This document shows, piece by piece, positions 5,934 to 64,000 of a stretch of 64,000 nt of DNA. The DNA is taken from the NCBI GenBank assembly GCA_013695765.1, contig JACCZW010000155.1, forward strand, positions 1 through 64,000, written 5' to 3'. Origin of the DNA: Gammaproteobacteria bacterium. Lineage in GTDB: Bacteria; Pseudomonadota; Gammaproteobacteria; JACCYU01. The notes beneath the pieces were generated by a model. The model worked only from the letters and a program-made list of their open reading frames with translations. It had not been told where the DNA came from and did not search any database. A program made the position numbers and the translations under genes. Each line of letters begins with the position of its first letter. The first letter of the stretch is position 1.

Positions 5934-6511
5934 CGCGTAGCGGGCGAGTCATCGCCGTCGTCCGCATCCTCGGGCACCAGGGTCATTTTCACGCGCCCGG
6001 TATGTTTAGGATCGTCCGCGTCCACCACGCGCCGCCGGATGTCATAAACGATACGTTCGGCCGCAAAATCGTTCTTCGCTCGGCGCAAAAACGCGTCACC
6101 GAGCAATGTGATGCGATGCTTGTGCGGCTCGTATTCCATGCGCAAGGCCTCGGCCCATAATACGTCCTCTCCGGGTCCGCTCTCCCCGGGCTCGTCCTCC
6201 CCAGGTTTGTCTTTGTTGGGCGCATTGCCGCCGGAGACGGTCTGACGAAAAGTGCTCTTGTCGCCTTGCGCGATAATTTTTTGCAGGCGCCTGCCCGGCG
6301 CGATGACCGTTACCGTGGCCGCGTTGAGCACCATGCCGCCCTGGGTGACGCGCACATCGCCGCGATAAATGCCGATGCCGGTCACCTCGTTAAGTTCGGC
6401 GCGATCCGCCTCGATCTCCAGCGGCAGCTCGGAATCGTTCTGCTGAGCGAGGCTCAACGGCGGCATCGCCAGCATCAGCATGAACGCCAGACGGACGGCG
6501 TTACGGCACAT
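5930..6511 (-). CDS. lptA: LPS transport periplasmic protein LptA
   Basis: 193-aa periplasmic OstA-fold protein that bridges LptC and LptD for LPS transport. Residues 1-22 are a Sec signal peptide ([13 protein letters not shown] then QQ). The beta-jellyroll core starts near residue 30 ([13 protein letters not shown]). Unusual is a Gly/Pro/acidic stretch at about 94-116 with repeated PGED-like units between two strands. The C-terminus is acidic. It overlaps lptC upstream and lptB downstream. Confidence 0.92.
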
Positions 6512-7061
6512 ATCGCCCCCGCACCCGCGATCTCAAATGCAGCGTACCGGCGGCCAGATCGAGCCGCATGCCCACGCCTTCCAGCCGCTGCGCGCCACTG
6601 ATGGCTCTTACCGGCGCCCCGGTGCGCGCGAGTTCGGGGTCGGGAAACACGGTGACGTCGCGCGTTATAACGTCAAGCCGGGCGCGCCTGCCGTACGGCG
6701 GCCGCTCGATGTCGACGGCGCCAGGCAGCCAGATGCGCTCACCCATGGCCGTCACCCGCGCGCGCTCGGCGCGCAGTTCCACCGGCGGACCGTCGTCACG
6801 GAAAAACCAGACATCCGGCGAGGTGAGGACCGATCTGTCGTCAAGCGGGAAGTGCACCATGCGCGGCGCCTCGATACGGTATTTCGGCGCGCCGTCCACG
6901 CCCATCATGGTGAGCAGTACGTCGGTAAAGGCGAAATCGGGCACACGCGGTGCGGCGGCTGCCGGCACGCGCCGCAGATCCTCCTGCAGGTCGCGCAGCC
7001 AGTCGCTCACGCCCACCGTAATTCCGATCAACGCGAGCAGCAGCAACAGGCGCAGCATCAT
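6501..7061 (-). CDS. lptC: LPS export ABC transporter periplasmic protein LptC
   Basis: 186-aa single-span protein linking LptBFG to LptA. Residues 1-18 (MMLRLLLLLALIGITVGV) form the membrane anchor, followed by a periplasmic OstA-like domain. ATG 7061 overlaps the kdsC stop codon, so the long upstream reading frame was not used. Its 3' end overlaps the lptA start by 11 bp. Identity rests on the anchor, size and position between kdsC and lptA. Confidence 0.92.
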   Translation of the reverse strand: MMLRLLLLLALIGITVGVSDWLRDLQEDLRRVPAAAAPRVPDFAFTDVLLTMMGVDGAPKYRIEAPRMVHFPLDDRSVLTSPDVWFFRDDGPPVELRAERARVTAMGERIWLPGAVDIERPPYGRRARLDVITRDVTVFPDPELARTGAPVRAISGAQRLEGVGMRLDLAAGTLHLRSRVRGRYVP

Positions 7062-7585
7062 GTCAGGTAATGTTTCATAGCAGTATCCAGCTTGCCTTGC
7101 GCCTCGAGGATCAACTCGCACACTTCGCGCACCGCGCCGTGGCCGCCCGCGCTGGGCGTGATCCAGTGCGCGTAACGCGCGACCAGCGGATGCGCGTCCC
7201 GCACGGCAATGGCAAGGCCCACGCGCCGCAACACGGGGATATCGACCACATCGTCGCCCACGTAGGCGCTCTGTGCCGCCGCGATATGCAAACCATCCAA
7301 TAACTTTTCGAACGCGGGCAGCTTGTCAGCTTTTCCCTGTACGACGTGTTCTATCCCTAAGTCCGCCATGCGCCGAGTGACGATTTTCGACTCGCGGCCG
7401 GTGATGATGGCGATGACGACGCCATAATGTTGCAGCATGCGCAGACCGTGGCCGTCCTTCACGTTGAACGCCTTGTATTCCTGACCCTCGTCGCCGAACA
7501 CCAGCGCGCCGTCGGTGAGCACGCCGTCCACGTCGAACACCGCCAGTTTGATGTTCGCGGCACGCCGCATGACGTCGTCGTCCAT
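7058..7585 (-). CDS. kdsC: 3-deoxy-D-manno-octulosonate 8-phosphate phosphatase KdsC
   Basis: 175-aa HAD-superfamily phosphatase that makes free Kdo for lipid A attachment. Motif I is DVDGVLTDG with the two catalytic Asp, motif II lies in IITGRES, and motif IV is GDDVVDIPV. ATG 7585 was chosen over an upstream GTG because it fits the family start and leaves a 16-bp gap to kdsD. The 3' end overlaps lptC. Confidence 0.95.
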   Translation of the reverse strand: MDDDVMRRAANIKLAVFDVDGVLTDGALVFGDEGQEYKAFNVKDGHGLRMLQHYGVVIAIITGRESKIVTRRMADLGIEHVVQGKADKLPAFEKLLDGLHIAAAQSAYVGDDVVDIPVLRRVGLAIAVRDAHPLVARYAHWITPSAGGHGAVREVCELILEAQGKLDTAMKHYLT

Positions 7586-7601
7586 ACCTACATTTCTCTG
7601 G

Positions 7602-8579
7602 CTAAAGCACGCCCGCACGCAGCAGATCGTGCATGTTCAGCGCACCCACCAGGACGCCGCGCTCGTCCACCACCGGCAGCGAGTTGATCTTGTGATCCTG
7701 CATGGTCTTCAGTAACTCGGCCGCGAGTTGTCCGGGCCGCGCGGTTCTGGCGCCAATCGTCATGACTTCGCCGATGCGTGTCGCGTGAATATCGATCGCG
7801 CGGTCCAGGGTCCGGCGCAGATCGCCGTCCGTGTAAATACCGATGACGCGCATTTGTGCGTCGACCACGGCGGTCATACCCAAACCCTTGCACGTGATCT
7901 CGATCAGCGCGTCGGCGAGCAACGTGGACGCCGTTACCGCCGGCACCCGCTCGCCGGTCTGCATGATGTCACCCACGTGCAGCAGCAGGCGCCGGCCGAG
8001 CCGTCCGGCAGGGTGCGAGCGGGCGAAGTCGTCGGCACTGAAGCCGCGTGCCTGCAACAGGGCGATAGCGAGCGCATCACCCATGACCAGCAGCGCGGTG
8101 GTGCTGGACGTGGGCGCCAGACCTAGGGGACACGCTTCTTTTTCGACGCTTACGTCGAGATTGACCGTCGCCTCGCGCGCCAGACTGGATTCGGGATTGC
8201 CGGTCAGCGCGATCAGTGGCGCGCCCAGTCGTTTGATAAGCGGCAATAACAGCAGCAACTCGTCGGTCTCGCCGGAACTGGACAGGGCGACGACTACATC
8301 TTTCGCCGTAATCATGCCCAGATCGCCGTGGCTCGCCTCGCCGGGATGCACGTAAAACGCCGGGCTGCCGGTGCTGGCGAAGGTAGCCGCGAGCTTGCCG
8401 CCGATGTGTCCCGATTTGCCCATGCCCATGACTACGATCCGGCCGTCGCACGCCAGTAGATACTCGCAGGCGCGGATGAACTTGATGTCGATGCGAGCGC
8501 CAAGTGCTGCGATCGCGGCGGCCTCGGTCTCGATTACCGCCAGCGCCAGCGCGCGGATTTGTTGTGTATCGATAGGCAT
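7602..8579 (-). CDS. kdsD: D-arabinose 5-phosphate isomerase KdsD
   Basis: 325-aa isomerase converting ribulose 5-phosphate to arabinose 5-phosphate, the first committed step to Kdo. A SIS domain occupies about residues 35-170 (GMGKSGHIGGKLAATFAST, SSSGETDE) and a CBS pair about 205-325. The start was set at ATG 8579 (MPIDTQQIRALAL), the family N-terminus; the 32 codons upstream look non-coding. It is the first gene of the kdsDC-lptCAB run. The calcium/sodium antiporter often upstream is absent here. Confidence 0.94.
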   Translation of the reverse strand: MPIDTQQIRALALAVIETEAAAIAALGARIDIKFIRACEYLLACDGRIVVMGMGKSGHIGGKLAATFASTGSPAFYVHPGEASHGDLGMITAKDVVVALSSSGETDELLLLLPLIKRLGAPLIALTGNPESSLAREATVNLDVSVEKEACPLGLAPTSSTTALLVMGDALAIALLQARGFSADDFARSHPAGRLGRRLLLHVGDIMQTGERVPAVTASTLLADALIEITCKGLGMTAVVDAQMRVIGIYTDGDLRRTLDRAIDIHATRIGEVMTIGARTARPGQLAAELLKTMQDHKINSLPVVDERGVLVGALNMHDLLRAGVL

Positions 8580-8865
8580 GATGATGTTGACGTTGCCGCG
8601 GAGTGCGCCAGTAATCGTTCCGCTGACCCAAGGCGAGTCGAGACAAATGAAGCACACCGCCGGAGTATACCGCACGCGCCACCGATGATAAGACCAAGTC
8701 TATGCATGGCGCAGCCCGGTTTACCATGCACCCGTGGTTGCCCCCGCCAAGTTCGAAGGGCTATGATTCCAAAAAAACGCAAAACACTGGATACGACTTA
8801 CGCCGTCGGTTCACAATAATTCAGCCGTTCACAATCATTGAAGGGGCCGGCGGGGAGGGCCATCT
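8580..8865. other. Intergenic region between divergent kdsD and kaiB
   Basis: 286 bp without a convincing gene. It must carry divergent promoters for the kdsD operon and for kaiBC, but no clear -35/-10 pair or operator stands out. The kaiB Shine-Dalgarno (GGGGAGGG) lies at its right end. Confidence 0.6.
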
Positions 8866-9171
8866 GTGAACACATTCATAAAGTACCGGCTGCGCCTGTT
8901 TGTCACGGGGCACACGCCTGCCTCGCTGAGCGCGCAGAAAAATCTTCGCAAGCTTTGCGAGGGTGAATTACGAGGCTGGTGCGAGTTTGAGGTGGTGGAC
9001 GTGCTCAAGCAACCGGAATTGGCCGAGGAGGCCCGGATCATCGCCACGCCCACTCTGGTCAAACTGACGCCGGAGCCACAGCGCAAGGTCATCGGCGACC
9101 TGAGCAATCACGACCAGTTGCTGCACGTCCTGGATATGCACCTTCCGGCGTCGGAACCAGCCGGCCACTAA
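8866..9171 (+). CDS. kaiB: KaiB-like circadian clock protein
   Basis: 101-aa thioredoxin-like KaiB. The N-terminal strand RLRLFVTGHTP, VIDV-like VVDVLKQPELAEE and the cis-proline segment IIATPTLVKL match the KaiB family, and IGDLSNHDQLL ends the fold. In cyanobacteria KaiB switches fold and binds the KaiC CI ring. GTG 8866 is used, with GGAGGG upstream. It lies 56 bp before kaiC. No kaiA is nearby, as is normal outside cyanobacteria. Confidence 0.92.
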   Translation: MNTFIKYRLRLFVTGHTPASLSAQKNLRKLCEGELRGWCEFEVVDVLKQPELAEEARIIATPTLVKLTPEPQRKVIGDLSNHDQLLHVLDMHLPASEPAGH

Positions 9172-9227
9172 TCGAACATTGAAATGGCCCGGCTTAAAGC
9201 GGCCCATAACACTTCGAGACAGTTCTT

Positions 9228-10739
9228 ATGAATGCTCAAACGCTTGAAATCGAGAAACTGCCTACGGGTATAGGCGGCTTTGACTACATCTCGTATGGCG
9301 GCTTGCCAAAGCGCCGCACCACCCTGATTGCCGGCACCTCGGGCTCCGGCAAGACCCTGCTGGCGTTACAGTTCCTGCATAACGGTATCGAGCGGTTTCA
9401 CGAAGGCGCGGTACTGGTCACCTTGCAAGAGCAGCCGGAAGACCTTTTCGCCAACGTGCGCAGCCTGGGTTGGGATCTGGCAAGCCACGTGGCGCAAGGC
9501 CGCCTGGAGGTGGTCGACGCCTGCGGCGAGACCCAGGAATACGCGCAGGTCAGCGGTGAATATGATTTGGGCGCGCTGACCGCGCGCATCGAGCACGCCG
9601 TCGGCAAGGTACGGGCAACGCGTCTGATCCTCGGCGGCGCCGGCGCGTTGTTTTCACTGTTCCGCGATCCGCACTTCGTGCGCCGCGCGTTGCGACGGGT
9701 GGTGATGGCGCTGCGGCAACTGGAAGTCACCGCGCTGATAGTCGTGGAACGCACCGACGATGACAAGATGGCGCGCTACGAGGTGGAGGAGTTCGTAGCC
9801 GACAACGTCGTCATCCTGCGCAACCGTCTGGATAATGAGCGGCGGCGACGCACCGCGGAGGTGCTGAAATTCCGCGGCAGCTTTCATCAGAAGGGTGAAT
9901 TTTCCTTCACCATCGATCCCGTGGACGGCATCGATATCTCCCCGATCTCAAGCCTCGCGAGCAGCGCGGAAGCCGCCACTACGCGCATCAGCCTGGGCGT
10001 CCCGGAACTTGACCAGATGTGTGGCGGCGGCGTATATCGTGACAACATCGTGCTGGTGAGTGGTGCGACGGGTACCGGCAAGACCTTGATGGTTACCGAG
10101 TTTATCGACTCTGGTATCCAGGCGGGAGAGCGCTCGCTACTGTTCAGTTTCGAAGAAGACCGCGAACAACTCGTGCGTAACGCGTCGAATTGGGGAGTCG
10201 ACCTCGGGGCCGCCGAGGCAGGCGGACTCCTGAAGATATTCAGCGAATACCCGGAACGGCGCGGAATGGAGGATCATCTCATCCACATGCGGCGCGCGAT
10301 ACAGGACTTCAAACCGGAGCGGGTCGCAATCGACAGTATCTCGTCCATGGAGCAGTCCGCCAACGCCCGCTCGTTCCGTGAGTTCATACTGGGCGTAATC
10401 AGCTATCTGAAGGTCAAGCGCATCGCGGGGATGCTGATCCACAGCAGCACCGAAGTCATCGGGAACCCGCCCCTCAATGACGCCTACGCCTCGACCATAG
10501 CGGATGTCATCGTGGCGCTGCGGTATGTTGAGGAGGGCGGCGCCGTGCGGCGCGCGCTGACCGTGCTCAAGATGCGTGGCTCGCAGCATGACAAGAGAAT
10601 CCGCGAGTACGACATTGACGGCGACGGCATGCACATCAAGGAACTGCACGGCGGCGAGAAAGGCATTGGCAGCGGCGCGGCCCCATCCGCGCCGCAAAGC
10701 GACGCCGCGCTGGGCGCAAGCGCGCAGAAGCGCGAGTAA
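9228..10739 (+). CDS. kaiC: KaiC-family two-domain RecA-like ATPase with degenerate CI site
   Basis: 503-aa KaiC with two RecA-like domains. CI Walker A is GTSGSGKT (36-43), CII Walker A is GATGTGKT (279-286). CII keeps the catalytic Glu pair (309-310), the Walker B Asp (VAIDS, Asp369) and the Ser-Thr phosphorylation pair at 422-423 (YASTIAD). CI looks altered: the FEE motif reads LQEQ (Gln67-Glu68), and the Walker B Asp of SIDS is replaced by Gly136 (LILGG). The C-terminal tail shows no resemblance to the KaiA-binding tail. Likely co-transcribed with kaiB and the following GGDEF gene. Confidence 0.9.
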   Translation: MNAQTLEIEKLPTGIGGFDYISYGGLPKRRTTLIAGTSGSGKTLLALQFLHNGIERFHEGAVLVTLQEQPEDLFANVRSLGWDLASHVAQGRLEVVDACGETQEYAQVSGEYDLGALTARIEHAVGKVRATRLILGGAGALFSLFRDPHFVRRALRRVVMALRQLEVTALIVVERTDDDKMARYEVEEFVADNVVILRNRLDNERRRRTAEVLKFRGSFHQKGEFSFTIDPVDGIDISPISSLASSAEAATTRISLGVPELDQMCGGGVYRDNIVLVSGATGTGKTLMVTEFIDSGIQAGERSLLFSFEEDREQLVRNASNWGVDLGAAEAGGLLKIFSEYPERRGMEDHLIHMRRAIQDFKPERVAIDSISSMEQSANARSFREFILGVISYLKVKRIAGMLIHSSTEVIGNPPLNDAYASTIADVIVALRYVEEGGAVRRALTVLKMRGSQHDKRIREYDIDGDGMHIKELHGGEKGIGSGAAPSAPQSDAALGASAQKRE

Positions 10740-54406: not shown

Positions 54407-55057
54407 ATGCATAATGCCAACCTCGCCGCGTACATCGATGAACTGCTGCCGCAAACGCAGTGCCGGCGCTGCGGCTACGCGGGCTGCCGGCCCTACGCGG
54501 ACGCCATCGCCGCAGGCGAGGCGGCAATCGACCGGTGTCCGCCGGGTGGCGAGGCAACCATTATGGAACTAGCGCGATTGCTGAACCGCGAAGTCGTTCC
54601 TCTCGACCATTCTAGCGGCACGCACTATGCGCCCGTGCGCGCCGTCATAGACGAGGACACCTGCATCGGTTGCACCAAGTGCATTGCCGCCTGCCCGGTC
54701 GATGCGATCGTGGGTGCGGCGAAGCTCATGCACACGGTTATCGCGGACGCCTGCACGGGCTGTGAGCTGTGCCTGCCGCCCTGCCCCGTCGATTGCATCG
54801 ATCTGGTTCCGGCCGGCGCCGATGTTGTACCGGCGATCGATGACGGCGCGCGTGAACAGGCCCACCGCGCGCGAGCAAGATACGAGTGGCGCAACCTGCG
54901 CCTGGCGCGCGACGCGGCGGAACGGGAAGCTGCCCACCCTGCGTTAGCATCGCAACCCGCGCGGCCCACGCTGGAGCAGAAACAGGCGGTGATTCGCGCG
55001 GCGGTGGCAAGGGTCAAAGCGAAGCGCGCGGCGGGGCAGCTGACCAACACACGATGA
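54407..55057 (+). CDS. rsxB: RnfB/RsxB-like ferredoxin
   Basis: 216-aa iron-sulfur protein. The Fe-S domain [17 protein letters not shown] with a distal Cys is followed by two [4Fe-4S] motifs ([16 protein letters not shown] and [16 protein letters not shown]). It lacks the N-terminal membrane helix of Rnf-complex RnfB, and no other rnf/rsx gene is present, so it is a free-standing ferredoxin. Overlaps nth as ATGA, a frequent pairing. Confidence 0.92.
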
Positions 55058-55704
55058 ACGCGCGCAAGCGCCACGAAATATTCACGCGCCTGCGTGCCGC
55101 GCTGCCGGAGCCGCGCGGCGAGCTGGTGTATGCCTCGCCATTCGAGCTTCTGGTGGCGGTAATCCTCTCGGCGCAGGCAACCGACGTGAGTGTCAACAAG
55201 GCCACCGCACGTCTGTTTTCGGTCGCCGGCACGCCGCGGGCAATCCTCGAACTCGGCGAAGACGGGCTTAAGAGCTACATCAAAACCATCGGACTTTACA
55301 ACAGCAAAGCCAGGAACATTATCGGCGCCTGCCATATGCTGCTGGAGCACCACGGCGGCGAGGTGCCGCGGGATCGCGAACAACTCCAAGCGCTGCCTGG
55401 TGTGGCGCGCAAGACCGCCAACGTGATCCTGAATAACGCCTTTGACGAGGCCACGATCGCGGTGGATACGCATGTGTTCCGCGTCGCCAACCGCACGCGC
55501 ATCGCCAGGGGCCGCAACGTTACCGAAGTCGAAAACAGGCTGCTGCGCGTGGTGCCCGTGGAATTCCGCCGCAACGCGCATCACTGGCTGATCCTGCACG
55601 GGCGCTACGTGTGCGTCGCGCGCCGCCCGAAGTGCCCGCGGTGCGTCATCGCCGATCTTTGCGAATATCCGGATAAAACGCCGGCCGTGCCGTCCACGGC
55701 CTGA
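55054..55704 (+). CDS. nth: Endonuclease III
   Basis: 216-aa DNA glycosylase/AP lyase for oxidised pyrimidines. The helix-hairpin-helix reads [14 protein letters not shown] with catalytic Lys120; Asp138 lies in [12 protein letters not shown]. The [4Fe-4S] loop uses Cys187, 194, 197 and 203, the same numbers as in E. coli Nth. ATG 55054. Confidence 0.97.
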
Positions 55705-56187: not shown

Positions 56188-56222
56188 AAATGGTGGGCCG
56201 CTTGCGCGGCCCACCATTTTTT
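56188..56222 (+). terminator. Strong Rho-independent terminator after the orphan precursor
   Basis: A 14-bp perfect stem (AAATGGTGGGCCGC pairing with GCGGCCCACCATTT), TTGC loop, ending in six T. It lies between the precursor gene and the convergent TonB-receptor gene. Confidence 0.92.
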
Positions 56223-56230
56223 AGCACGAA

Positions 56231-58244
56231 TTATTCGAATCCAACCCTGTACGTGACCGCGACGCTGCGCCCTGGCGAGAAGATCCCGGAGCCGTGGGTC
56301 TTGTATGTCTTGTCGCCCAGGTTTTCCAGGGTGACCAGAACCTGCTGATTCGGAGTCGGGCTGTAACCCGCGCCAAGATTAAATACGGTGTAGCCCGGAG
56401 TACCGTCCGGGCCGATACGGGGATCTTCTATGTCACCGCTCGAAAGCTCGTCCTGCCGATCGGCCACCAGGGTGGCCGCCTCGAACCACAGCCGCGAACT
56501 CGGTAAATAACGTACACGCAGTGACCCGTTAAGCGGCGGAATGCGGCGCACCGGTTCGCCTGTGCTGGTATCTTCACCGTCGGTCCACGCCAGGGTCGTG
56601 GCGGCTGAAAGATTGCGTGATTCCGGCCTCGACGCCGTGGATGCGCGCCTCATCTATGTTTTGCCGCTGCTCAATCGGCGTGCCGTCGGCCTGCGTGCCG
56701 ACCTCAACGCGGTCGATGAGATTTTCATAATCGCTGTAATAGTAATAAACGTCCGCCGACGTGCCGCCCTTGAAAAAGTTGACTCCGATCTCGCCGTTGA
56801 TCGACTCCTCGGGTTTCAACTCCGTGTTCGGGATCTCGCTGAAGAAATCCACGCGGCCGAAAAAGTCCTCCATGTTGGGCGCGCGAAAACCTTGCGCGAC
56901 ACCGCCTACGAGATTCAGCGAGGGCGTGAGACTGTATAGCGCGTTGAGACTTCCCGTCACCTTGTCAGTCTCCAGACTCAAGTTTTCCGCGCCCAACTCA
57001 CCCTCGGTCTCGAAGCGGCTGTAGCGAACGCCGGCAATTAAATCCGCGCGATCGGTCAGCGCCAACTCGTCCTGCACGTAGGCGCCGATGCTGGTGTAGT
57101 ACGCGTCGTCGGGCGTGCCGGGCTGGACGGCTGTCTCGACGCCGGTAGTTCTGTCGATCTCAATCTTGCCGGTGTCGTAGTCGTCCCGGTAGTAATCCAC
57201 ACCGTAAGTAAAACGATGGCTCTCGCCGATAAGGTTGGTAAACTGCGCCGTCGCACCCTTGGTCTCTACGCCCGTCAGTTCGCGTGTTTCGATCAGGGGC
57301 AATTCTCCGTCGATAATCTCTTCGCCTTCCTTTTGGCGGTTGTAAGAGACATTCAGCCTGATCTGATCGAACGGCCCGAAGTCCTGCCCGCGATACTCGC
57401 CATAAGCCAGCTCACGCTCCTGCGGTTCGTAGTTGAATTTGAGCAGATCTCCCAAGGTGACCTCGCTGGTCTTGGGGACGTCGTACTGGCGGGTATACTG
57501 GCCGGCGACGATGAACTCGCTGTGTTCGTCGGCCCGCCAGTTGAGCTTCAAGTCCGCGTCGAGTTCGTCATAGCCGCTGGGAACCTGCTCGCCGACACCA
57601 TCGCCGCCTTCCAGGTCATCGAATATTTTGCCGGTCACGCCGCCAATGAACCCGATGTCGCTCCGGTTGCCTTCGACCTGTGCACGCGCGCTGCCGCCGT
57701 CGACCCCGCTGTCGTAGCGGCCTTCGATAAGCCCGCCCAGATCCGCCGAACTCGAAAAATCCGTGCGTCGCTTCGTGATAATGTTGATGACACCCCCCAG
57801 CGCATCGCTGCCGTAGAGCACGGAGCCTGGACCCCGCACTACTTCGATGCGTTTGATGAGATTCGGGTCAATCGTGTTCAGATACTGGTGCGGACCGAAG
57901 CGATAGAACGAGTTATTCAGGCGCACGCCATCCACGAGAATCAGCACCTGTTTGCCGGTCAGTCCACGGATGAACGGCGAGCCGCCGCCGAGGTTGGTGT
58001 TTTGTATGTAGACCCCCTGTGCGTAGCGCAACAGGTCGGGCGTGCGCGACGTGTTGGCCCGCTGTATTTCCTTCTGGCCGATCACCGTGGTAGCTCGCGG
58101 CGTATCGAAATCGCTGCGCATGACCCGCGCGGCGGTGACGGTTATTTGCGGCAGCAGCAGCGGTTTCTGGGCAACAACGAGGGTGCTGCTGGAGTTGAGC
58201 AAAACGAGTGCGGCGCAGCGGCTGATGCGTGATTGTCCGAACAT
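56231..58244 (-). pseudogene. TonB-dependent receptor gene with a single-base frameshift
   Basis: The first frame from ATG 58244 gives a signal peptide (ALVLLNSSSTLVVAQ), the plug domain (QITVTAARVMRSDF, FIRGLTGKQVLILVDGVRLN, GSDALGGVINIITKR) and much of the barrel to HGVEAGITQSFS. From there the other frame continues AATTLAWTDGEDTSTGEP to a proper C-terminus ending AVTYRVGFE. The shift lies near 56606-56612. The plug resembles heme/hemoglobin or siderophore receptors; the ligand is unknown. It lies between two HvfA-like precursors. Confidence 0.82.
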
Positions 58245-58404
58245 TTTGATAAACCGTGGTATTCGAGTTGTTAGCCAACAGGCAGCGCGCGATCCGTGCA
58301 CTTCGACTGCTCGCTGGAGTTTTCTACGAGTTGTCAATTGGCGCGAAGCCCATACGGCTTGCGACGGTCTCCTGTGACCGCCGCCAAGCCGCGTTACGAC
58401 GTCG

Positions 58405-61400
58405 TTATCGCTTAGCTATCCGCTCAGCTTGCGGAGTGCAGGCCTTCCGCAGACTGGTCTCGTGGCGTGCGAGCAGCACCTGACGATTCTCGCGCATGTC
58501 CCTGCCGTGTCTGATCATCGGATAAGGCGCGTCCTCGCCTTTAAGACCGGCCCACAGGGCGTGGTTGAAGCGCGCCGTATGGAGGTTATCCTCGACCGTG
58601 AAATCCTGGCCACGCATCGCGCGCGTCCAGTAAACCGCGCTCTGCTGTGGCTCATCGAAGCAAATAGGGTAATCGACCGCGGCAAACCTGGCGCCCGCAC
58701 GTTTCGGCGGCAGGGTCAGCTCCGTGGTGCGCAGGATTTCGGGCACGATGGCCTTGTAATCCCATTCGATCTGGTTGCGGTCGAACACATCGGCCATGGG
58801 CTCTGCCAGTCCGTCGTTCAGCCCCATCGGTTGCATGCCGAGGACGTCCTCGATGGTGCGCAGCATGCTCACGGTCGTGTAATGCTCGGACACGACCGCG
58901 CCCTGCTTGACGTACGGCCCGATGACGTAGCCGATGCTGCGGTGGGCATCCACGTGATCGCCGCCGTCCTGCGCGTCGTCTTCGATGACGAAGATCAGTG
59001 TGTTGTGGGCGTACGGGCTGTTGGCAATCTTCTCCACCAGCAGCGCGGTAGCGTAGTCGTTGTCGGCCATTTGCGTCTCCACCGTGTTCACACCCGCCAC
59101 TGCGGTATCGAAGTCGCCGAAGTGATCGTGCGGAAGGCGCACCAGGCTCAGGTTAGGCAGATTGCCGCTGGCGACATATTGGTCGAACTCGCGTTCCCAT
59201 TCCTGATAGCGCCATAGGTCCGGGTACTTCTGGTCGTAGCCGCGGAAGTAGGGATCGGTGATGTTCATCAACGACTGCTTGGTGGGGAAGAACTGGAGGA
59301 TGCCGTGCGCAAACGGGTCTTGTACCGTCGGGATAAAGTTCGGATCGTCCTCGGAAAGGAAATACCGGCTAAGATCGCCGTAGAACCCGTAATTGCGTAC
59401 CGTGAGTCCCGCGCGTAACGCCGTGTCCCACAGGTAGCCGGTCCCGGCTTCGTTCTCCTCAATCTCGCTCTCCGGCGCGTCGGGCGCGGCTACGTCCGCT
59501 GTGCCGGGCAGCAGATCGGGGTCGAACGGCACCGCCGGGTTGGAAAGCTGCCGCTTCTCGATGCTCTTGTAGGCGACATTGACGTTGCGGTTGGTGCCTT
59601 CCCAGTCATAGGTGAGCCCGCGGCCGGCGTAGTTGACCGGCGAGGACTTCTCCGTGTAGTCGGTGGTGCGCGCGGCCGTGGTCCAGTTCCAGCCGGTGTT
59701 GCTGGTCTCGCCGCTGTCGTAGAAGTTGTCCAGGGTGATGAACTGGCGCGCCCACTGCTGATGGTTAGGCGCGTACGGGGAAAGAATGGCCAGGCTCGGG
59801 TCGCCGTTGCCGACTTCCAGATCGCCCAGCACCTGGTCGTAGGTGCGATTTTCCTTGACGACGTAGATCACATGCTCGATCCGGTTGCGGACAAAGTTCA
59901 TCATGCGGCTGCGCTGTGCGTGATCCCGCGCGGTGGGAAAATTGCTGTTGGCCGCCACTTGCCAGGTCAGCGTCGCTAACTGCTGTGCATCGGGCATCGG
60001 CATCGCCAGCAGCCCGGCTTTTTCAAGCTGCCACACATAGAGGTTCCTGCCACTGCACTCAGCGGATGCATCCTCTTCCTCGGACAGATTGTCGGTGCAT
60101 CCGCCCGGATTGGGGCCGGCTTCGTCCTTGCCGTTGACTGCGTACAACCAGCCGCCGTCGGCGCTTACGCTGACCGCGTTGGGATACCAGCCGGTCGGAA
60201 CCAGGCCGACCACATCGCTGTTTTGCGCAAGGCTGTCTTCTTCGGCAGCTTCGGCATGACGAGCCTCCGCCAGCGCGGGATCGAGCGCCATCTCGCCGAG
60301 TTCGACAAAGGCCACCGAGTTGGTGCCGCCGTTGGTAACGAATAGCGTTGCCTCATCCGGCGACAGGGCAAGATTATTCGGGTTGCTGCCCTTGAAGCCT
60401 TCGTCGTTGGGGAAAATCGACTCTGGCGCGGTGGTGGAGATCTGCTCGATGATCTCGTCGGCTTCCGTGTCGACCACGTCCACCGTGTCGCTGTTGTCGC
60501 TGGCCACGTACAGGCGGGTCCCGGCCGCGTTCAATACCAGGTGATTGGGCTGGCCGTCGGTTTCGATGCGGCCGGTCACGCTCAAGACGTCGTCTTCTAC
60601 CGACAGCACCACGATCTCCCGATCGCGCTGGCTGGTGACGTAAGCCTTGTCGTCGCCCTTGAAAACCACGCCGAACGGAAATTCGCCGCCCGCGACACCG
60701 GACTTGCCGGGATCGATCAAACCAGGCCGCAGATCCTGCTCCGCGACCTCGACCCGCAGATCCAGATCGATCAGGCTGGCCGAATCGTTCTCCAGATTGA
60801 CCACGAGCAGCCGGTCACCTGAAGAATTCACGGCCACGCCGGCAGCGAGCGGGGCCACGTCGACGCCCAGACCGGCGTCGTGCCCTAACTCGATCGGCAT
60901 GCCGTCTTCCGCCCAGGCGCCGCCGGCATTCGAGTAAATGTGCACATTGTCGTCCACGCCGCCCGATACATAGAATTCCTGACGCGCCGGATTCCAGGTA
61001 ACGCCGTTGTAGGCATTCGGCACCTGCAAGACCTGCTGCTTGCGCGGCTTGCCGCGGCTGATATCGTAGACGAATACGTATTCGTTGGAGGCTTCCGGAA
61101 CCTGCTCGCCGCTGGGGTCGTTGAGACGGTTGTAGCCGCTGGTGAGCACCAGCATCGTATCACCGTCGGGACTGATGGCCGTGTCCACCGCCTGGCCCGC
61201 GCGATAATCCGGAAACGCCGGCAGGTTCGGGTTCAGCGGTTCGAAACTCGCTGTATCGGCCGCCTCTGGTGTGATGCGCATGCCGGTAGGCAAAACCTCT
61301 CCTCTGACAGGTTGCCACTGGCCTGGACGGGCGATATTCACGCCCTCGCTCTGCGCCGCCACGCCGCTCAACCCGCTGGCCAGCATCGTGGCGGCGACAG

Positions 61401-61443
61401 CGCCGGCCACAAACGCCGAATGAAATGGATTTCGATGATTCAT
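58405..61443 (-). CDS. Secreted beta-propeller / phosphoesterase fusion protein
   Basis: 1012-aa periplasmic or exported protein with signal peptide (1-30, LSGVAAQ). Residues about 60-480 form a YncE-like beta-propeller (VAVNSSGDRLLVVN, LVLNAAGTRLYVAS, LALSPDEATLFVTN); about 520-930 form an alkaline-phosphatase-superfamily phosphoesterase (VVKENRTYDQVLGDL, RLPHDHFGD, IEDDAQDGGDHVDAHRS). GGAGGTAATAAATG gives a strong start at 61443. Same strand as the TonB receptor downstream (160-bp gap), so they may share a transcript. Confidence 0.88.
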   Translation of the reverse strand: MNHRNPFHSAFVAGAVAATMLASGLSGVAAQSEGVNIARPGQWQPVRGEVLPTGMRITPEAADTASFEPLNPNLPAFPDYRAGQAVDTAISPDGDTMLVLTSGYNRLNDPSGEQVPEASNEYVFVYDISRGKPRKQQVLQVPNAYNGVTWNPARQEFYVSGGVDDNVHIYSNAGGAWAEDGMPIELGHDAGLGVDVAPLAAGVAVNSSGDRLLVVNLENDSASLIDLDLRVEVAEQDLRPGLIDPGKSGVAGGEFPFGVVFKGDDKAYVTSQRDREIVVLSVEDDVLSVTGRIETDGQPNHLVLNAAGTRLYVASDNSDTVDVVDTEADEIIEQISTTAPESIFPNDEGFKGSNPNNLALSPDEATLFVTNGGTNSVAFVELGEMALDPALAEARHAEAAEEDSLAQNSDVVGLVPTGWYPNAVSVSADGGWLYAVNGKDEAGPNPGGCTDNLSEEEDASAECSGRNLYVWQLEKAGLLAMPMPDAQQLATLTWQVAANSNFPTARDHAQRSRMMNFVRNRIEHVIYVVKENRTYDQVLGDLEVGNGDPSLAILSPYAPNHQQWARQFITLDNFYDSGETSNTGWNWTTAARTTDYTEKSSPVNYAGRGLTYDWEGTNRNVNVAYKSIEKRQLSNPAVPFDPDLLPGTADVAAPDAPESEIEENEAGTGYLWDTALRAGLTVRNYGFYGDLSRYFLSEDDPNFIPTVQDPFAHGILQFFPTKQSLMNITDPYFRGYDQKYPDLWRYQEWEREFDQYVASGNLPNLSLVRLPHDHFGDFDTAVAGVNTVETQMADNDYATALLVEKIANSPYAHNTLIFVIEDDAQDGGDHVDAHRSIGYVIGPYVKQGAVVSEHYTTVSMLRTIEDVLGMQPMGLNDGLAEPMADVFDRNQIEWDYKAIVPEILRTTELTLPPKRAGARFAAVDYPICFDEPQQSAVYWTRAMRGQDFTVEDNLHTARFNHALWAGLKGEDAPYPMIRHGRDMRENRQVLLARHETSLRKACTPQAERIAKR

Positions 61444-61724: not shown

Positions 61725-62387
61725 TCACGCGCGGCGCGACGTCCTCGGCCAGTGGTGAAGATAACGCCCAAGGGCGCCCGCCAGCGCGCTCAGCAGGGCC
61801 ACTCCGCCGAAGTGCCAGACCAGCACCATTAGACTCGCATCCGGCGGATGAAAAAGCCGTAAGCCGAAATTACCCAGCGCGGCCGCGGCCAGCGCGCCCA
61901 TTGCCATGGTCATACGCGGCGCCAGCGGGGCGCCACGACGCAACATGACGAACATCGCGATCGCGGGGATGGCGCCGACAATCATGATTTTAGGCGCACA
62001 GTGCCAGTCCGGCTGGATAGTCAGACCCGCCGCGCCATAGCGCAGCCAGTCCTGCAGGCAGCCGTGACCCAGACTGCCAAACCACACCGCGAGCGGCAAC
62101 AGCGGCAACAACAGTAGCCGGCGTGAAATGCCGGGGATCACCGCGCAGAACGCGGCGAACGCGGCGCAAACCGCCGTGAGCAGGGTGGCTGTCTGTTCGA
62201 TCAGAAAACGGGTACTGGCGATTTCGTCCAGGTCGGCGCGCACGCCCATGCCGATCACGATCAGCGCGACGCAAGGCAGTGCGACGATGAGCCACAGAGC
62301 CAGGCGCCGCCACGGGGACGGCAGTCGGCCCGCGCCTGTGTCGGACGCCACCAGATTACGGATCAGATCGTCTGTCGTTTCCATCAT
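61725..62387 (-). CDS. nrsF: NrsF-family (DUF1109) anti-sigma factor
   Basis: 220-aa integral membrane protein with six hydrophobic helices of the DUF1109/NrsF family. The short cytoplasmic N-terminus (MMETTDDLIRNLVAS) would hold the sigma factor. Cys110 (GHGC) and Cys130 (DWHC) are candidates for sensing metal or redox stress, as proposed for Caulobacter NrsF. ATG 62387 overlaps the sigma gene as ATGA. Confidence 0.9.
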   Translation of the reverse strand: MMETTDDLIRNLVASDTGAGRLPSPWRRLALWLIVALPCVALIVIGMGVRADLDEIASTRFLIEQTATLLTAVCAAFAAFCAVIPGISRRLLLLPLLPLAVWFGSLGHGCLQDWLRYGAAGLTIQPDWHCAPKIMIVGAIPAIAMFVMLRRGAPLAPRMTMAMGALAAAALGNFGLRLFHPPDASLMVLVWHFGGVALLSALAGALGRYLHHWPRTSRRA

Positions 62388-62959
62388 TCGGGTTTCTTAA
62401 GCCTTGTGCGCAACGCCTTGATCGCCCTGTGCACGGATACTTTCAGCGACGCGACGCTCATGCCGGACTCGTGCGCGGCCTCCTTCAAGGACATTTCACG
62501 CAGCTTTACCAGTTCCACCGCGCGGCGCTGTCCGGCGGGCAGGCTTGCTATGGCGTGGAGCAGCGCTTCGCCGTCCTCGGATCCGTTTTCATTAGTAGTA
62601 TTCGTTTCGTCCGGCGAAAAGGTTTCATAAAACCCTTCCGCCGCCTGTTCGGCCGACTTCAAGCGCACGTAACGTCGCCCGCTGTCGGCCACACGATTGC
62701 GCACGATCGCGGCCAGCCACGGCGCGAACGGGCGCTCGGGGCTGTAAGTCGCCCGCACGGCGTGCACCGACAGCAACACGTCCTGCACGATATCCTCGAT
62801 ATCCACTGGCCGGATATAACTCCGCTGCACACGCACTGCGTTGCGCACCTTGGGGACGAGCTTGCGCAATAGACAGTCGTAAGACACACGATCGCCCTCC
62901 TGCGCCGCTTTCATCAGGCGGCGCAGTCCGGAATCCCCGTCGTCCTCCTGTCTCTCCAT
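62384..62959 (-). CDS. SigF-like ECF sigma factor
   Basis: 191-aa ECF sigma factor. Region 2 spans about 17-85 (DIEDIVQDVLLSVHAV), region 4 about 130-185 (LPAGQRRAVELVKLREMSLKEAA, SVASLKVSVHRAIK). The partner is the DUF1109 protein encoded next. In Caulobacter the equivalent pair controls a DUF692/DoxX operon from GTAACC-N16-CGAA promoters, and that sequence precedes the divergent hvfA-like gene here. Confidence 0.93.
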   Translation of the reverse strand: MERQEDDGDSGLRRLMKAAQEGDRVSYDCLLRKLVPKVRNAVRVQRSYIRPVDIEDIVQDVLLSVHAVRATYSPERPFAPWLAAIVRNRVADSGRRYVRLKSAEQAAEGFYETFSPDETNTTNENGSEDGEALLHAIASLPAGQRRAVELVKLREMSLKEAAHESGMSVASLKVSVHRAIKALRTRLKKPE

Positions 62960-63036
62960 ACAAACTCTGCGATGGGTGAAACGTTGTGATCAGCACCGTT
63001 AATGGCTTACATCGACCGTGTTTTTTTCGGCGCAGT

Positions 63037-63062
63037 GTAACCTTTGCCGGGGTGATAACGAA
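63037..63062 (+). promoter_or_regulatory. SigF-type promoter for the hvfA-hvfX unit
   Basis: GTAACC (63037-63042), exactly 16 bp, then CGAA (63059-63062): the published Caulobacter SigF consensus. It lies in the divergent region between the sigma gene and the precursor, about 57 bp upstream of the precursor ATG, a sensible leader length. Confidence 0.75.
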
Positions 63063-63118
63063 TAGACGGGTGTAACGCCGAACAAAACATTACATAACCC
63101 TTAACGGAGATTTGACAC

Positions 63119-63391
63119 ATGAACACACAACGCAACCTCAAGATGCTGGCGATCGCCGCCGGCACGGCACTGACGGCAGGCGCGGCAGCCATACCAGCGG
63201 CCAACGCCGGGCAGAATCCGTTCAGCATGACCGAACTTTCATCCGGCTACAGCGTCGCCGGCATTGACCTGGACGTCGTCCGCTTCGCCGACGGCAAGTG
63301 CGGCTCGAACAAGGAAAAGGAAGGCAAATGCGGCGAAGACAAACAGGGCGAAGGTAAATGCGGCGAGGGCAAGTGCGGAGAGAATAAGTAA
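63119..63391 (+). CDS. hvfA: HvfA-like RiPP precursor (copper metallophore type)
   Basis: 90-aa precursor with a Sec signal (1-30, IPAANA end) closely matching the copy at 55.9 kb. Four GKCG motifs (Cys61, 71, 81, 86), the last three as EGKCG. Between signal and motifs lies a short unique part (SSGYSVAGIDLDVVRF). ATG 63119 has GGAGA upstream. Under a SigF-type promoter and followed by hvfX. Maturation would need an MNIO enzyme not seen here. Confidence 0.9.
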   Translation: MNTQRNLKMLAIAAGTALTAGAAAIPAANAGQNPFSMTELSSGYSVAGIDLDVVRFADGKCGSNKEKEGKCGEDKQGEGKCGEGKCGENK

Positions 63392-63416
63392 GCTGCCGGT
63401 CAGCCCTGCAATGACA

Positions 63417-63447
63417 CGGCGGGCCGGTCTCCGGTCCGCCGGTTTTT
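63417..63447 (+). terminator. Terminator-like hairpin between hvfA and hvfX
   Basis: CGGCGGGCCGG pairs with CCGGTCCGCCG (one G-T pair) around a 3-nt loop and is followed by five T. It should let only part of the transcripts reach hvfX, keeping the precursor in excess. Confidence 0.85.
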
Positions 63448-63520
63448 GATATCCACCATAGCGTTCAATACAGACCTGCCCTACGCCGGCCGGCCACATA
63501 GCATTGAAGGAGCCTCCACC

Positions 63521-63982
63521 GTGATTACCCTGATTCGCGCCGCAACCCCGCTGATCGACGGACTGAACAGAACTGGCGAATGGCTGCCGCAACTGGGACT
63601 GCGCGCGCTGATCGCGTACGAATTCTGGGGATCGGGCGTGGAAAAACTGCGCGGCGAGAACTGGTTTGGGGACGTAATGCACATGTTCCCATTTCCGTTT
63701 AATGTGGTGCCGACCGACATTAGTTGGGCAATTGCGACCTGGTCGGAGTTAATAGGCGCCGTGGCGCTGGCGGTCGGTCTGGGCACGCGATTCTTCGCTG
63801 CCACTTTCATCATCCTGGACCTGGTGGCCTGGTACACGGTGCACGCGGGCCTCGGCTACAACGTATGCGACAACGGTTTCCAACTGCCGCTGATGTACCT
63901 GATTTTGCTGCTGCCGCTGCTGTTCAGCGGCGCGGGCAAGGCGAGCGTGGATTATCTGCTCTCACGGCGGTTCCTGGCATGA
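63521..63982 (+). CDS. hvfX: HvfX/DoxX-family membrane protein
   Basis: 153-aa DoxX-family protein with four hydrophobic helices (ALRALIAYEFWGSGVEKL, ELIGAVALAVGLGTRFFAA, LPLMYLILLLPLLF). DoxX proteins are standard partners of HvfA/MNIO copper-RiPP operons. GTG 63521 with AAGGAG ten bases upstream; the longer frame runs through the terminator. The window ends 18 bp later, so hvfB/hvfC could follow. Confidence 0.88.
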   Translation: MITLIRAATPLIDGLNRTGEWLPQLGLRALIAYEFWGSGVEKLRGENWFGDVMHMFPFPFNVVPTDISWAIATWSELIGAVALAVGLGTRFFAATFIILDLVAWYTVHAGLGYNVCDNGFQLPLMYLILLLPLLFSGAGKASVDYLLSRRFLA

Positions 63983-64000
63983 CTTGCGGACGCGACTGAA

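Follow-up and report, generated by a model that had tools for sequence, protein, structure and literature searches.

A putative captophorin-type RiPP operon, hvfA-hvfX-hvfB-hvfC, divergent from a sigma-F/NrsF-like gene pair in a gammaproteobacterial genome

The stretch of DNA analysed here (the window, 64,000 nucleotides, C155:1-64000) ends inside what is probably a copper-buffering RiPP operon of the captophorin type (HvfA/oxazolin/fontiphorin-like), with the order hvfA-hvfX-hvfB-hvfC and control by a divergently encoded sigma-F-like sigma factor and its NrsF-type anti-sigma factor (Table 1). All of its parts are known; the regulator is the uncommon component, and the locus presents a natural regulator swap and no new kind of system. 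A preliminary description of this DNA had placed the sigma factor and NrsF genes divergent from an HvfA precursor and an HvfX/DoxX gene at 62384-63982. Open reading frames and profile scores confirm the four genes there, with the correction that nrsF lies outside this span, whose lower end is that of the sigma gene. The operon is truncated by the window edge and complete beyond it, with contig C155 running on to 82125; the MNIO appeared to be absent because the window ends before hvfB and hvfC. Past base 64000, where the description had proposed to look for MNIO and HvfC (DUF2063) genes, both are present, and the genome, in which the lack of any MNIO had been named as evidence to the contrary, has two, including the one that follows hvfX in the operon.

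Table 1. Features of the locus and the related stand-alone precursor
Feature	Position	Strand	Remarks
Stand-alone EGKCG precursor (A2), 86 aa	55904..56164	+	four EGKCG; related to A1, outside its operon
nrsF-like anti-sigma factor, 220 aa	61725..62387	-	membrane protein; PF06532
ECF sigma factor, sigma-F-like, 191 aa	62384..62959	-	PF08281/PF04542 over cut-off
Sigma-F promoter match, GTAACC-N16-CGAA	63037..63062	+	exact Caulobacter consensus; identical in sister species
hvfA-type RiPP precursor (A1), 90 aa	63119..63391	+	Sec-type signal ending in AANA, before GQ; four KCG motifs
Terminator-like hairpin between hvfA and hvfX	63417..63446	+	folding z -4.2
hvfX (DoxX family), 153 aa	63521..63982	+	GTG start, AAGGAG upstream; NF050144, PF07681
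hvfB (MNIO)	C155:64102-65016	+	NF003818, PF05114; beyond window
hvfC (DUF2063; PME type 1 partner)	C155:65009-65779	+	NF050145, PF09836; beyond window

The signal of the precursor A1 is evident from its hydrophobic core and terminal residues, as judged by eye and hydropathy only. The four GKCG motifs first described stand as a count; by type they are one DGKCGS, which comes first, and three EGKCG(E). A1 scores 27.7 bits against the NCBIfam KCG-repeat model NF050137 (cut-off 19.5) and 13 bits against the full-length HvfA equivalog model (cut-off 95); by sequence profile it belongs to the HvfA class through its repeat domain and not through the full-length model. The hairpin behind it (folded stretch -25.4 kcal/mol), the stem of which is identical in the sister species, is probably a partial terminator that would keep the precursor in excess. 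Beyond it, hvfX alone intervenes before hvfB, which sits about 710 bases past the hvfA stop codon. HvfX matches NF050144 with 129.3 bits (cut-off 80) and PF07681 with 63.5 bits, over the cut-off, and the GTG at 63521 is more likely to be its start than a TTG at 63446. HvfB reaches 444.7 bits with NF003818 (cut-off 360) and 353 bits with PF05114, has a solved relative in PDB 3BWW (E 1e-77), and finds its closest relatives mostly in gammaproteobacterial MAGs; HvfC reaches 340.6 bits with NF050145 (cut-off 142), is over the cut-off of PF09836, and has a solved relative in PDB 3DEE (E 1e-11). The HvfA and HvfX family assignments made earlier are thus borne out by profile scores, and the families of HvfB and HvfC downstream are established likewise.

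The sole same-genus genome among the relatives searched, a sister species (G001), conserves the entire locus in the same layout, nrsF-sigma / hvfA-X-B-C. Every gene of the locus shows a dN/dS of 0.10-0.18 in this comparison (0.14 for the sigma gene), which indicates purifying selection, and conservation of the full set in this range rules out chance open reading frames. The genes, their families, their order, the promoter match and the conservation are observed directly. The preliminary description had held a DoxX gene behind the precursor, with no maturase between, to be an unusual order; the MNIO does come after DoxX, and in the 80 nearest MNIO loci from genome_contigs the hvfX gene lies ahead of hvfB 18 times and behind hvfC in most others. 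Six of the 18 hvfX-first loci have a KCG precursor at most 4.5 kb upstream, and Antoine et al. (PMC12452194) state that the core genes occur “in various combinations”. The A-X-B-C order is a known alternative and not an oddity.

The sigma gene overlaps nrsF by 4 bases. Its product has its best NCBIfam matches in PRK12512 and PRK12536, both below their cut-offs, and in the sigma tree forms with its counterpart from the sister species a long branch of its own. The NrsF protein, encoded with this ECF sigma gene, scores 91.1 bits against PF06532 (cut-off 26.8) and only 27.2 bits against the NCBIfam equivalog model NF042994 (cut-off 300); judged by these profiles it is a divergent member of the family by Pfam and not an NCBIfam equivalog. 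Five segments exceed a simple hydropathy cut-off, versus the six reported in Caulobacter. Of the two conserved cysteines the first is present, as Cys130; in the alignment the position of the second is taken, in the window and in the sister species alike, by the histidine of LFHPPD. Caulobacter NrsF has Cys131 and Cys181 tied to its response, and single substitutions there stay inducible (PMC3511200), so the missing second cysteine weighs little on the claim that the window's protein works like NrsF. Since the same position is a glutamate in 2 of the 11 other relatives aligned, the second cysteine is possibly no strict requirement. The histidine at this position, together with the divergence of the protein, means therefore that the sensed signal may differ from the chromium and cadmium of Caulobacter.

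The Caulobacter sigma-F promoter consensus is GTAACC-N16-CGAA (PMC3511200), and its exact match in the window ends at 63062, with 56 bases separating it from the hvfA ATG. There are 5 exact matches genome-wide, against 6 for the reversed control pattern, and from these genome counts about 1.4e-4 would be expected by chance on the right strand of the 160-base intergenic stretch. The sister species has the promoter block unchanged, while the whole 160 bases are 70% identical without gaps; identity per 20-base bin from -100 to -41 is 19/20, 20/20 and 19/20. No motif pointing at the sigma gene was found within two mismatches in the intergenic stretch.

To place the pairing of NrsF with HvfB in context, we sampled NrsF in the class, where 13 of 370 genomes had a match above the cut-off, and in the phylum, where 84 of 398 did. 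MNIOs were then sought in 80 genomes with NrsF, a set from which near-duplicate genera had been dropped. Linkage was counted with the HvfB model because the KCG domain model is insensitive, missing A1 itself in genome searches. An MNIO lies at most 5 kb from NrsF in 32 of the 80, and in none of these are the start coordinates of the two genes more than 2.8 kb apart. Of the 32 MNIOs, 29 fall below the HvfB cut-off and are bufferin-type or at least not HvfB, and the remaining three are HvfB-type and come from two genera, namely the window's genome, its sister, and G568, which belongs to another family. The G568 locus (L134, same class) has the order A-B-C-X divergent from the sigma gene, with nrsF behind the latter on the same strand; its sigma factor groups with one adjoining a bufferin-type MNIO (support 88/87), apart from the window's. 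As the two sigma factors fall apart in the tree, at least two separate pairings are suggested, and the NrsF/HvfB pairing probably arose more than once. In the literature text surveyed (PMC12452194), sigma/NrsF genes are reported in Buf1 and not in Buf2 bufferin clusters, and there is no mention of them for EGKCG clusters. The joining of a sigma-F/NrsF regulator to an EGKCG precursor, proposed in the preliminary description, is upheld, and the pairing with EGKCG/HvfB is rare in our sample, undescribed in the literature text surveyed, and made of known parts.

It is very improbable that sigma-F and NrsF are chance neighbours that control other genes, with hvfA being served by another promoter. 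Such an arrangement would fit the stand-alone precursors, which have no exact or one-mismatch sigma-F motif upstream, and the finding that phmmer detects no NrsF relative near the 80 nearest MNIO loci, many of which end at contig ends; this zero is weaker than the count from NrsF genomes because phmmer misses distant NrsFs, including one in L134. It is opposed by the exact and conserved sigma-F promoter before hvfA, with its low chance expectation, and by the divergent layout, which the sister species conserves and which is conserved in G568 too, independently according to the sigma tree.

Precursors also occur outside the operon. A2 is followed by a strong terminator-like hairpin of its own (about 56190-56220, z -6.2), has an endonuclease III gene on one side and a TonB-receptor gene on the other, and is conserved in the sister species (dN/dS 0.17). 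A third EGKCG precursor is represented by its 3' end at L005:1-55, the rest being lost at the start of contig C12; downstream of it are genes for a cytochrome c-type protein (162-1814), a radical SAM protein and a DUF547 protein, and the same cytochrome c-type gene also stands behind a precursor in G001, which carries a fourth precursor. We rejected the idea that all precursors are under sigma-F: no sigma-F motif, exact or with one mismatch, precedes A2 in either species or A3 and A4 of G001. Stand-alone precursors are already known in the EGKCG class (PMC12452194). The genome's two MNIOs are one HvfB and one bufferin-type enzyme (C12:25249), the latter behind two BufA2-like precursors, the first of which scores 80.8 bits against NF050166 (cut-off 60). 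At L094:6422-8847 a bufferin-2 type cluster has a tandem pair of BufA2-like precursors together with an MNIO and a DUF2063-like gene; two SAM-methyltransferase-like genes come after it. In three of the nearest MNIO loci, L009, L010 and L018 (around 6200-9700), ferredoxin and endonuclease III genes are followed directly by hvfX-hvfB-hvfC, and no precursor is nearby; after the window's counterparts of the two genes (54407-55704) A2 comes next instead. As these loci have hvfXBC where the window has A2, there is a hint that hvfXBC may have moved.

The TonB-dependent receptor gene beside A2 (56231-58337, minus strand) is split over two frames near 56574-56653, by an assembly error or a real frameshift; both pieces match one frame in the sister species (L131:12075-14201). 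Between it and nrsF lies a gene (58405-61443, minus strand) whose 1012-aa product combines beta-propeller with phosphoesterase domains and is 85% identical in the sister species, where the neighbourhood is similar. One might take the peptide for a copper-acquisition chalkophore, released and retaken via this receptor, given that the latter is a neighbour of A2, with the order unchanged in the sister species. We regard this as very improbable: the receptor matches heme/hemoglobin models best (TIGR01785, 237 bits, below the cut-off; TonB-copper only 51) and is frameshifted in the assembly, the set is without an exporter, and peptides related to this one are considered to buffer copper in the periplasm.

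For the copper-buffering operon that we favour, we infer the signal, the release of the sigma factor, the use of the promoter, termination, the cysteine chemistry, export and copper binding as follows. In the absence of stress the sigma factor would be bound at the membrane by NrsF; thiol stress or too much metal, most likely copper but possibly others, would inactivate NrsF, and the freed sigma factor would then transcribe hvfA from the GTAACC-N16-CGAA promoter, much as sigma-F/NrsF drives MNIO operons in Caulobacter (PMC3511200). Through partial termination at the hairpin after hvfA, more precursor than enzyme would be made. HvfB and its partner HvfC would convert each KCG cysteine, with 5-thiooxazole as the expected product, and HvfX would have an accessory membrane role. 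The Sec system would export the modified peptide to the periplasm, where it would buffer copper; the product described earlier as “secreted” is better taken as exported in this sense. The cysteine modification and copper binding are suggested by analogy with characterised homologues: enzymes of the HvfBC type form thiooxazoles in EGKCG repeats, the products bind Cu, and the chemistry expected for the KCG cysteines follows by homology to fontiphorin, oxazolin and gonophorin (PMC13097082). HvfBC may also modify A2 and possibly the other stand-alone precursors in trans.

The main trigger and role of such a captophorin cluster could instead be oxidative or thiol stress or another agent (Cr, Cd, Au, hypochlorite). 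We consider this unlikely, though it deserves some weight, in that dichromate and cadmium elicit the sigma-F response of Caulobacter (PMC3511200), the HOCl-induced Haemophilus RpoE2 regulates a DoxX operon (PMC7907618), and the window's NrsF is without the second sensory cysteine. Copper is favoured by the characterised products of the class, which bind copper and help against it (PMC13097082, PMC12452194), and by the membership of the window's enzymes and precursor in this copper-binding class.

With copper buffering retained as the preferred reading, we tentatively suggest, as a possibility that falls short of being probable, that the genus rewired an EGKCG/HvfB operon to a divergent sigma-F/NrsF pair (with a sensory cysteine changed to histidine), so that one precursor is induced by stress and several others are expressed independently, all of them served by a single shared HvfBC pair. 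The locus joins to the EGKCG/HvfB branch a metal-stress switch reported for Buf1 and not Buf2 bufferin clusters (PMC12452194), and such regulator swaps argue that the bufferin and EGKCG/HvfB branches answer the same stress. A NrsF without one of the two sensing cysteines of Caulobacter is a natural test of what NrsF senses, and the co-occurrence of just one HvfB with an inducible precursor and several others expressed on their own bears on the question whether stand-alone precursors are modified in trans.

Among known systems, the closest in content are hvf of Haemophilus influenzae (oxazolin) and fon of Fontimonas thermophila (fontiphorin), captophorins of the EGKCG class (PMC13097082, PMC12452194). 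They share with the window a KCG-repeat precursor with a signal peptide, the HvfB MNIO, the HvfC DUF2063 partner and an HvfX/DoxX gene; unlike in these, the window's DoxX gene stands directly behind the precursor, and the repeats of A1 begin with DGKCGS after an insert that is absent from A2. The regulator is NrsF-type in the window, whereas Haemophilus has RpoE2 with HrsE, a 67-aa cytoplasmic anti-sigma factor, in a system that is HOCl-induced and regulates a DoxX-containing operon (PMC7907618); NrsF control of Haemophilus hvf is not reported in the literature surveyed (PMC7907618). Caulobacter CC3252-CC3257, with nrsF-sigF beside DUF2282-DUF692-DUF2063-DoxX (bufferin 1), has in common the nrsF-sigF pair adjoining an MNIO operon, the GTAACC-N16-CGAA promoter and accessory genes. 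It differs in its DUF2282 (Buf1) precursor, its BufB-type MNIO and the last position of DoxX, whereas the window has a histidine in place of the second NrsF cysteine and no sigma-F motif with at most two mismatches towards the sigma gene. The G568 locus (L134) shares with the window an EGKCG/EAKCG precursor operon divergent from sigma and NrsF genes and an HvfB over the cut-off, and differs in its A-B-C-X order and in a sigma factor that groups with a bufferin-linked one.
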